Source: Comamonadaceae bacterium
GTDB lineage: Bacteria > Pseudomonadota > Gammaproteobacteria > Burkholderiales > Burkholderiaceae_C
NCBI GenBank assembly: GCA_947372865.1
Contig: CANBVJ010000011.1
Coordinates: forward strand, 1 to 64,000
DNA length: 64,000 bases
Direction: 5' to 3'
Under the pieces are notes generated by a model, which was given only the letters and a program-made list of their open reading frames with translations, had not been told where the DNA came from and searched no databases. This document shows positions 7,869 to 9,668 of the stretch, piece after piece. Numbering within the stretch: position 1 is the first letter of the stretch; each line of letters begins with the position of its first letter. The translations under genes and the position numbers were made by a program.

Positions 7869-9668
7869 TCAGTCCTGCACGCCTTCGACAAAGAACTTCA
7901 CCCGCCGCACGCCGTTCCATTCGTCTGCGTCCAGGCGAAAGGCCATGGTCACTTTGGCGGGCAAGGGCTCGGTGTGGCCGAACCAGATGGCGTCCACCGG
8001 TTCGCCCTGGTGCTTGAGTTTGAGTGACAGGTGTTTTTCACCCACCAGGCGCTGCGAAATCACTTCGACTTCTTCGCTGAAGGTGGGGGCGGCAAAGCCC
8101 TGGCCCCAGACGGCTTCGTGCAAGGTGTCTACCAAATCCACGCGGCGGTAGGCGGGCAGGAGCGGGCCGTCGGTGGCCAGGCGGCGCTGCAGGGTGGCGG
8201 CGTCCAGCCATTCGTGTGCGACTTCATTCAGGCCTTGCTCAAAGGTGTCGAAATGCTCCTCGGCTACGGTGCAGCCCGCCGCCATGGCGTGGCCGCCAAA
8301 GCGCAGCAGCACGCCGGGGTAGCGCTTGGCCACCAGGTCCAGCGCGTCGCGCAGGTGAAATCCGGGAATCGAGCGGCCCGAGCCCTTGAGCTCGTGTTCC
8401 TTACCCGGCGCCTGGCTGGCAGCAAACACAAAGGTGGGGCGGTGCAGCTTGTCCTTGATGCGCGAAGCCACGATGCCGACCACGCCTTCATGAAAATCGG
8501 GGTCAAACACGCAAATGGCTGGCGGCGGCTCGTCGCCCTCGTCAAACAGCGACTCGGCCACCAGCATGGCTTGTTCGCGCATGTCGCCTTCAATGACGCG
8601 GCGTTCGCGGTTGATGCCGTCCAGCGTGCGCGCCAGCTCATCTGCGCGCGCAGGGTCGTCGGTTAGCAGGCATTCGATGCCCAGCGTCATGTCCGACAGG
8701 CGCCCGGCGGCATTGATGCGCGGCCCCAGGGCAAAGCCAAAGTCAAAAGTCGTGGCCTTGGCCGCTTGGCGGCCCGAAGCCACAAACAGCGCAGCCAGCC
8801 CCTGGGGCATGGCCAGTGCCCGCACGCGCTTGAGCCCTTGGGCTACCAGGCGGCGGTTGTTGGCGTCCAGGCGCACCACGTCGGCCACGGTGCCCAGGGC
8901 GACCAGCGGTAGCAGTGCGTCAAGTTTGGGTTGAGCCCCCACGCTCGTCGCTGCGCGTACTTCGCTGCCCCCCGAGGGGGCTAATTTCCCTTGGGGCGGC
9001 CCGGCGGGAAATTGGGTCTGTGTTGGCGAAGCCTCAAACACGCCGCGCGTGCGCAATTCGCTGCGAAGCGCCAGCAGCACATAAAACATCACGCCCACGC
9101 CGGCCATGGCCTTGCTCTCAAAAGTGCAGCCGGGCTGGTTGGGGTTGACGATGACGTCGGCTGCGGGCAGGGCGCTGCCCGGCAGGTGGTGGTCGGTCAC
9201 CAGCACCTGCAGGCCCAGGGCTTTGGCGCGGGCTACACCGTCCAGACTGGCGATGCCGTTGTCCACGGTAATCAGCACGTCGGCGCCCTGGTCAAACACG
9301 CGTTGTGAAATCGGCGCGGTCAGGCCATAGCCGTCCACCACGCGGTCGGGTACCAGGTAGCTGACGTGCTGCGCGCCCAGCAGGCGCAGGCCGCGCACCG
9401 CCACGGCGCAGGCGGTGGCGCCGTCGCAGTCGTAGTCGGCCACGATGCACAGGCGTTTTTGCGCGGCAATGGCGTCGGCCAGCAAGACGGCGGCCTCACG
9501 CACGCCCTTCAATCCGTCGGGCGGCAGGAGTTTGGACAGGGCGTTGTCCAGTTCGTCAGGCTGGGTCACACCGCGCGCGGCGTAGAGCTGCGCCAAAAGC
9601 GGGTGCACGCCGGCCTGTTCGAGCGCCCAAACGCTGCGGGGAGGAATGTCGCGGGGGGTGATGTTCAT
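7869..9668 (-). CDS. recJ: Single-stranded-DNA-specific exonuclease RecJ, with an in-frame repeat insertion
   Basis: A 599-residue RecJ, the 5'-to-3' single-strand exonuclease used in recombination and mismatch repair. DHH phosphoesterase motifs are clear: DYDCDG at 78-83, VDNG near 136 and DHH at 159-161; the DHHA1 motif GGHAMAAGC follows further on, then the OB-type domain. Between FEAS and LVALGTVADVV, about residues 214-247 form an unusual Pro/Gly/Ala-rich stretch encoded by a palindromic repeat (separate entry). E. coli RecJ is about 577 residues and has only a short linker here. The ATG at 9668 overlaps the stop of the upstream gene (ATGA), so the two are translationally coupled. The frame is intact and the catalytic motifs are preserved, so activity is likely retained. 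Confidence 0.93.
   Translation of the reverse strand: MNITPRDIPPRSVWALEQAGVHPLLAQLYAARGVTQPDELDNALSKLLPPDGLKGVREAAVLLADAIAAQKRLCIVADYDCDGATACAVAVRGLRLLGAQHVSYLVPDRVVDGYGLTAPISQRVFDQGADVLITVDNGIASLDGVARAKALGLQVLVTDHHLPGSALPAADVIVNPNQPGCTFESKAMAGVGVMFYVLLALRSELRTRGVFEASPTQTQFPAGPPQGKLAPSGGSEVRAATSVGAQPKLDALLPLVALGTVADVVRLDANNRRLVAQGLKRVRALAMPQGLAALFVASGRQAAKATTFDFGFALGPRINAAGRLSDMTLGIECLLTDDPARADELARTLDGINRERRVIEGDMREQAMLVAESLFDEGDEPPPAICVFDPDFHEGVVGIVASRIKDKLHRPTFVFAASQAPGKEHELKGSGRSIPGFHLRDALDLVAKRYPGVLLRFGGHAMAAGCTVAEEHFDTFEQGLNEVAHEWLDAATLQRRLATDGPLLPAYRRVDLVDTLHEAVWGQGFAAPTFSEEVEVISQRLVGEKHLSLKLKHQGEPVDAIWFGHTEPLPAKVTMAFRLDADEWNGVRRVKFFVEGVQD
8931..9029. repeat. Palindromic repeat element inserted in recJ
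   Basis: A G+C-rich patch with two nested inverted repeats: agccccc at 8934-8940 with gggggct at 8976-8982, and aatttccc at 8983-8990 with gggaaatt at 9006-9013. It corresponds to an insertion of about 33 codons in recJ. Its pattern resembles, from memory, a dispersed short repeat seen between and within genes of Comamonadaceae. No second copy was found in this window. Confidence 0.6.

Follow-up and report, generated by a model that had tools for sequence, protein, structure and literature searches.

A non-autonomous, dispersed hairpin repeat very probably entered a loop between two helices of RecJ in the lineage of the window genome (G000) and two relatives (G094 and G088), where, judging from sequence comparison, it would be read as a flexible linker of 30 residues. 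The window is the whole stretch of 64,000 nucleotides that was analysed. Copies of the repeat are dispersed, the corresponding sites in sister genes are empty, the copy in recJ is open and in frame, and the same linker was entered repeatedly in other lineages. The in-gene copies that could be scored fall in just two frames, one on each strand, and the arms of the hairpins vary in a compensatory manner.

The recJ gene and its 30-residue insert

The recJ gene lies on the minus strand (7872–9668) and encodes a protein of 599 residues, starting at an ATG with MNITPR and ending before a stop codon at 7869–7871. A profile search identifies the open reading frame as RecJ (TIGR00644; score 430.4 bits, cut-off 396.9). 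Its alignment with the RecJ 8y30 is interrupted between residues 201 and 252. The nearest relatives (L025–L028), with 89–90% identity, are 569 residues long and carry DA(A/S)T at the position of EASPTQTQFPAGPPQGKLAPSGGSEVRAATSVGA in the window. Alignment with them leaves 30 residues, 215–244 (PTQTQFPAGPPQGKLAPSGGSEVRAATSVG; minus strand, 8937–9026), without counterpart. This place, after residue 214, is referred to as site B. Site A (after residue 165; minus strand, 9171–9176) is empty in the window, whereas six other RecJ sequences have a copy of this repeat there.

A preliminary description had placed extra codons between two RecJ motifs exactly where a palindromic repeat sits. The coincidence holds, with a copy of the repeat (8935–9013) at the extra residues, and the comparison with sister species that it proposed finds RecJ relatives of about 90% identity without the insert; its count of about 33 codons comes down to 30. 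Its wording of RecJ as essential was too strong. E. coli tolerates deletion of recJ, and leuS, murD and dnaG, which also hold the repeat here, are essential in model bacteria.

In an AlphaFold2 model built with 40 RecJ sequences, residues 215–244 have pLDDT below 50 and lie between helices 190–207 and 249–263. The model is moderate overall (mean 67.5, pTM 0.62) and was used only for the well-modelled N-terminal surroundings of the insert. The low model confidence at the insert suggests disorder.

The insert is identical letter for letter in G000, G094 and G088, the recJ genes of which differ by about 6% in nucleotides, and the site is empty in G011 and G024, which are interleaved with G094 and G088 on the tree. 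This distribution fits one gain and two losses, and it also fits local recombination. It is possible, though we lean against it, that the window owes its insert not to descent but to sister species exchanging a short tract of recJ by homologous recombination; the identity in three genomes and the absence from the two interleaved ones speak for such an exchange. However, the 100-bp blocks of recJ around the insert still differ among the three genomes, and two losses explain this six-tip clade as well.

The genome of the window is a draft of 3.0 Mb in 84 contigs, and those of G094 and G088 are likewise draft assemblies. Repeats break assemblies, but it is hardly conceivable that the repeat was joined into recJ during assembly: the insert is present in three assemblies, its reading frame and flanks are intact, and site A is likewise filled in the named strain Rhodoferax lacus IMCC26218 (L056).

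Anatomy, distribution and movement of the repeat

The repeat (minus strand, 8935–9013) is about 79 bp long and comprises three hairpins, an anatomy derived from aligned copies. Further copies, for which the preliminary description had asked the genome to be searched, do exist: counting the one in recJ, the genome has 24 matches at E≤0.01, of which 22 reach E≤1e-6, and some form tandem pairs. The 25-bp core occurs once in the window when up to 3 mismatches are allowed, with 0.00 occurrences expected by chance. These many copies, together with the absence from sisters, back the earlier suggestion that a mobile non-coding element may have become protein sequence.

Judged from the 24 copies of the window genome and 91 distinct copies, the typical unit begins with H1, which has a variable stem and the near-constant loop GCCGGGCCGCCCCAA, and continues through H2 (GCCCCC-TCG-GGGGGC) and a small H3 to a terminal GGGGGC. 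The 91 copies were chosen by a pattern for the parts of the unit, which excludes degenerate copies. In the window, H1 (minus strand, 8983–9013) has an 8-bp stem, AATTTCCC/GGGAAATT, closing the constant 15-nt loop, as indicated by covariation in the 91 copies and by the predicted fold. H2 (minus strand, 8967–8981) is evident from sequence and predicted folds, which pair its GCCCCC arm with the terminal GGGGGC (8935–8940) as an alternative. H3 (minus strand, 8947–8960; GT[A]CGC-GCA-GCGAC) is drawn from covariation in 64 copies.

The left arm of H1 takes 40 distinct 6-nt forms among the 91 copies, and several positions show all four Watson-Crick pairs. At the seven variable positions the arms pair, G-T included, in a fraction of 0.79–0.98 of the copies, against 0.41–0.75 with shuffled partners; since the copies are related, the shuffling controls for H1 and H3 overstate significance. 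Three of the five H3 pairs covary, for instance in 63 of 64 copies against 38.5 after shuffling, and the other two (56 vs 56.0 and 56 vs 53.6) hardly vary and carry little information. For its composition, one copy taken alone folds no better than ordinary sequence (z of −1.30 as DNA and −0.72 as RNA). The evidence for the structure is the covariation across copies. No Rfam match above the gathering score was found in the 10 of the 24 own loci that were scanned; two matches below it both fall in L016, and one of these shares two bases with the copy, at its end.

DNA matches at E≤1e-6 occur in 28 of the 41 genomes of the genus, and a peptide query matches 68 of 103 genus genomes at E≤0.001. The genus includes Rhodoferax lacus, as the RecJ of G043 is identical to that of strain IMCC26218. 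In a sample at the level of the order, at least 30 of 399 genomes match, a lower bound since at most two candidates were scored per genome, and the strongest matches are in the same family. The link to Comamonadaceae drawn in the preliminary description agrees with these counts. A phage or plasmid origin was considered and rejected: none of 50,697 phage records matches, and the 6 matches among 72,556 plasmid records (two from Variovorax and one each from Acidovorax, Azoarcus, Paraburkholderia and Burkholderia) have no listed gene under them.

The flanks hint at a target duplication in places. Past the repeat in the window, CAACCCAA (minus strand, 8926–8933) resembles CAGACCCAA (9012–9020) ahead of it, a possible local target duplication, and CATCTAG is apparently duplicated at the copy L005. 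Over the 91 copies no target-site duplication emerges, with 50 flank matches observed against a control mean of 50.1, and this candidate was dropped.

The hairpins and the lack of target duplication are what an ordinary REP element would display, and the window genome carries one Y1_Tnp gene; an element moved by a RAYT-type Y1 transposase, in genes by chance, is nevertheless unlikely. The GTAG foot was found at neither side of the hairpin in any of the 91 copies, and the CGTC foot at none on the left and two on the right. The presence of Y1_Tnp does not track the repeat among genomes, and the RAYT association was rejected on this ground: the gene is found in 96 of 103 genomes, among them 13 of the 13 genomes without a DNA match to the repeat (of the 41 genus genomes), and it was not found in the repeat-bearing G011, G031, G063, G068 and G069, three of which are less than 80% complete. 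The single Y1_Tnp gene of the window genome (C18:4553) is not flanked by repeats; the nearest of the 24 copies is about 1.9 kb away, inside gltB.

Linkers of RecJ and Mpl across relatives

The 173 RecJ loci compared comprise 143 distinct sequences. Eighty named loci are the best 80 of at least 537 confirmed, and the other 93 come from 92 of the 103 genus genomes, 11 genomes being without a match. Site B holds the present repeat in 7 of the 143 (the window, L106, L107, L033, L037, L040 and L058), and site A in 6 (L195, L197, L069, L198, L056 and L092). In three sequences (L067, L092 and L111) site B is filled in frame by a different repeat with a VRAELVEA/RPEPVEG peptide, which resembles a common dispersed repeat. 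No insert longer than 15 residues is present at either site in 128 of the 143. L092 carries one repeat at each site. At residue 165, several lineages have inserts of 5–9 residues that read differently (RDGAI, NRKTGAV and others) and may be what is left of decayed repeats.

A quick RecJ DNA tree, made with the insert columns left out and with many weak forks, requires at the fewest 7 changes for site B, 6 for site A and 3 for the other repeat. A single gain would require 35 losses at site B and 26 at site A (outgroup L190). Outside the clade of the window, the nearest neighbours of the filled tips are empty at that site, as in the filled and empty pairs L058/L078, L040/L087, L033/L047, L037/L187, L195/L032 and L092/L072; L056 and L197 are in unresolved forks with empty rows.

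For the comparison of insert identities, the RecJ inserts of L037 and L198 were added by hand. The site-B inserts have a mean identity of 0.774, against 0.778 for random sets of copies, and 1071 of 2000 random sets are as alike. The RecJ insert of G006 shares 92% identity with another copy in that genome, and no more than 82% with any other RecJ insert. Site B thus appears to have been hit repeatedly, since its inserts are as diverse as random copies and that of G006 is nearer to a copy outside RecJ than to the other RecJ inserts; these comparisons support repeated insertion from within genomes, about five times. The inserts of L033 and L040 are 96% alike, and each matches a copy outside RecJ in G046 (L240) at 95% identity. 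At site A the inserts other than L056 are similar in H3, and they are somewhat more alike than random (98 of 2000 sets for five, 344 of 2000 for all six with L056). Some of them may share one origin, and the case for repeated insertion is weaker there than at site B.

Whether the insert was recruited, with selection keeping a linker that improves or regulates RecJ, can be judged from the same data. In its favour, several lineages have this linker filled, some of them by a different repeat, and the element is identical in nucleotides in three genomes whose recJ genes differ by about 6%. Such a role is nonetheless very unlikely: the filled RecJ are scattered tips with empty neighbours, the site-B inserts are mutually as different as random copies, the low model confidence suggests disorder, and ten other genes of the same genome hold the same repeat.

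The linker of Mpl offers a parallel case. The mpl loci (L278–L307) are the best 30 of 97 matching genomes, and the query carried an insert, so that filled sites are over-represented among them. Within these best 30 of 97 loci, the linker holds the peptide of the present repeat in G000, G046 and G043 (in G043 it is degenerate and was recognized by eye), and another palindromic repeat in 25.

In 21 of these best 30 mpl genes the different coding insert reads SAQVKEEPAKRAGDTEQ or close to it (for example L290:1651-1749 and L297:1651-1746), and the repeat of this type is itself dispersed, with 47, 22 and 29 matches in G059, G045 and G007. In L297, L300, L301 and L306 the peptide of the reversed DNA stands at the same place, as if flipped within the hairpin; the letters were compared for L297 and L300. 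The mpl of G018 (L284) has a shortened repeat peptide, ASTLPDVAVLPWGGPAAKR, which suggests that inserts erode in frame.

Copies in other genes and known palindromic elements

Open reading frames over the repeat were surveyed at 24 loci of the window genome and at 30 of the 41 repeat matches of the relative G046, the genome of which is a single contig. Requiring at least 50 codons before the repeat and at least 20 after it gave 53 frames. According to profile searches, 12 of the 24 copies in G000 lie within 11 conserved genes, namely recJ, mpl, pyrR (two copies), putA, hrpA, gltB, murD, ppc, a DUF2126 gene, leuS and dnaG. In G046, 5 of 30 loci lie in conserved genes: a Competence/ComEC-type gene, an APH-family kinase, a Mur ligase (mpl by its likeness to L002), a FemAB-like gene and an AidB-N/acyl-CoA dehydrogenase. 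This difference in share between genomes, 12 of 24 copies against 5 of 30 loci, counts against the explanation preferred here. The Pfam scan covered all but 14 of the 53 frames, those 14 being shadow frames of confirmed genes. Among 23 further frames that span the repeat, 22 matched no Pfam family; the remaining one is guaA-like, with the repeat upstream of its likely start.

All 15 in-gene cases scored by script use sense frame 0 or antisense frame 1 of the six frames. The sense frame reads ..GPPQG..APSGGSE..SVGA and the antisense frame ..SLPPEGA..WGGPA. H1 may sit in a different frame where the spacing differs, for instance at RecJ site A. The copy in dnaG (L024), in which H2 and H3 are altered, received no frame from the script and is in the antisense frame by eye; a second match in the DUF2126 gene, at residue 169, was taken as a chance match of the loose pattern. 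Of the 91 copies, 85 are free of stops in sense 0, 78 in sense 2, 88 in antisense 1 and 81 in antisense 2. Because four frames are mostly open and two are used, stop codons alone are insufficient to account for the choice. The share of Pro, Gly, Ser, Ala, Gln, Glu, Lys, Asp, Asn and Thr is highest in the two used frames (0.80 and 0.74), the latter value tied with sense frame 1, a frame that stays open in just 31 of 91 copies. Survival of the least harmful peptide would account for the frame choice.

Under the preferred explanation, copies would enter genes in any phase and at any place, and the survivors would mainly be those that sit in loops and are read in either of the two frames with many small flexible residues. 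The repeat may persist as a single strand that folds, and an enzyme or a replication process may copy or move it without leaving a duplication. The insert in RecJ would be roughly neutral and lost over longer times. A stronger version, that the repeat is adapted to genes, each strand keeping one benign linker frame for cheap spread into coding sequence, with loops such as RecJ site B and the Mpl linker as recurrent landing pads for several families of palindromic repeats, strikes us as somewhat improbable.

The kind of element is already known from Rickettsia palindromic elements (RPE) and intragenic REPs. RPE (Ogata et al. 2000) are 105–146 bp long, occur between genes and in frame within conserved proteins, and have an effect given as neutral or slightly detrimental (PMC2229807). 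By that description, the present repeat is alike in being dispersed, palindromic, and both intergenic and in frame in conserved proteins, here of 11 genes in its own genome; the recJ insert is also absent from close homologues, as is asked of RPE. It differs in its length of about 79 bp (H1 arm to GGGGGC), outside the range of 105–146 bp, in its constant-loop hairpin, in its use of one frame per strand and of the same linkers repeatedly, and in its hosts, which are Rhodoferax-type betaproteobacteria. The repeat works like RPE, by analogy, and is not filed as one.

GTAG/CGTC REPs likewise lie inside many proteins, often of DNA synthesis or repair, and in recB of two Xanthomonas species an intragenic REP is at about the same site (PMC3733652); unlike them, the present repeat has no GTAG or CGTC foot, a longer unit and three hairpins. 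Some bacterial MITEs, namely ERIC, RU-1 and the Correia 107-bp element, have open frames and are described in PMC2229807 as small, non-autonomous and fused in frame to genes, as is the present repeat, which however lacks target duplication in 91 copies. The palindromes of PMC2755013, which are CRISPR, are not a match.

What is added is a repeat family in Rhodoferax-type bacteria for which a literature search, thin on subscription journals, returned no recognised description, with half of one genome's copies in conserved genes, one frame per strand and parallel linker hits across species. Filled and empty alleles of the same linkers in close relatives make it possible to test what coding palindromes cost in fitness, how they turn over and how they move, and provide a many-species system for watching the conversion of repeat to protein. 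They also call for caution, as core genes of the group (leuS, murD, dnaG and recJ) can hold repeat-derived residues.

In pyrR of the window genome (L003, C37:11567-11724), two tandem copies stand at the N terminus in the same sense frame. They would add about 50 residues if translated, although the gene may in fact begin at a GTG within the repeat.
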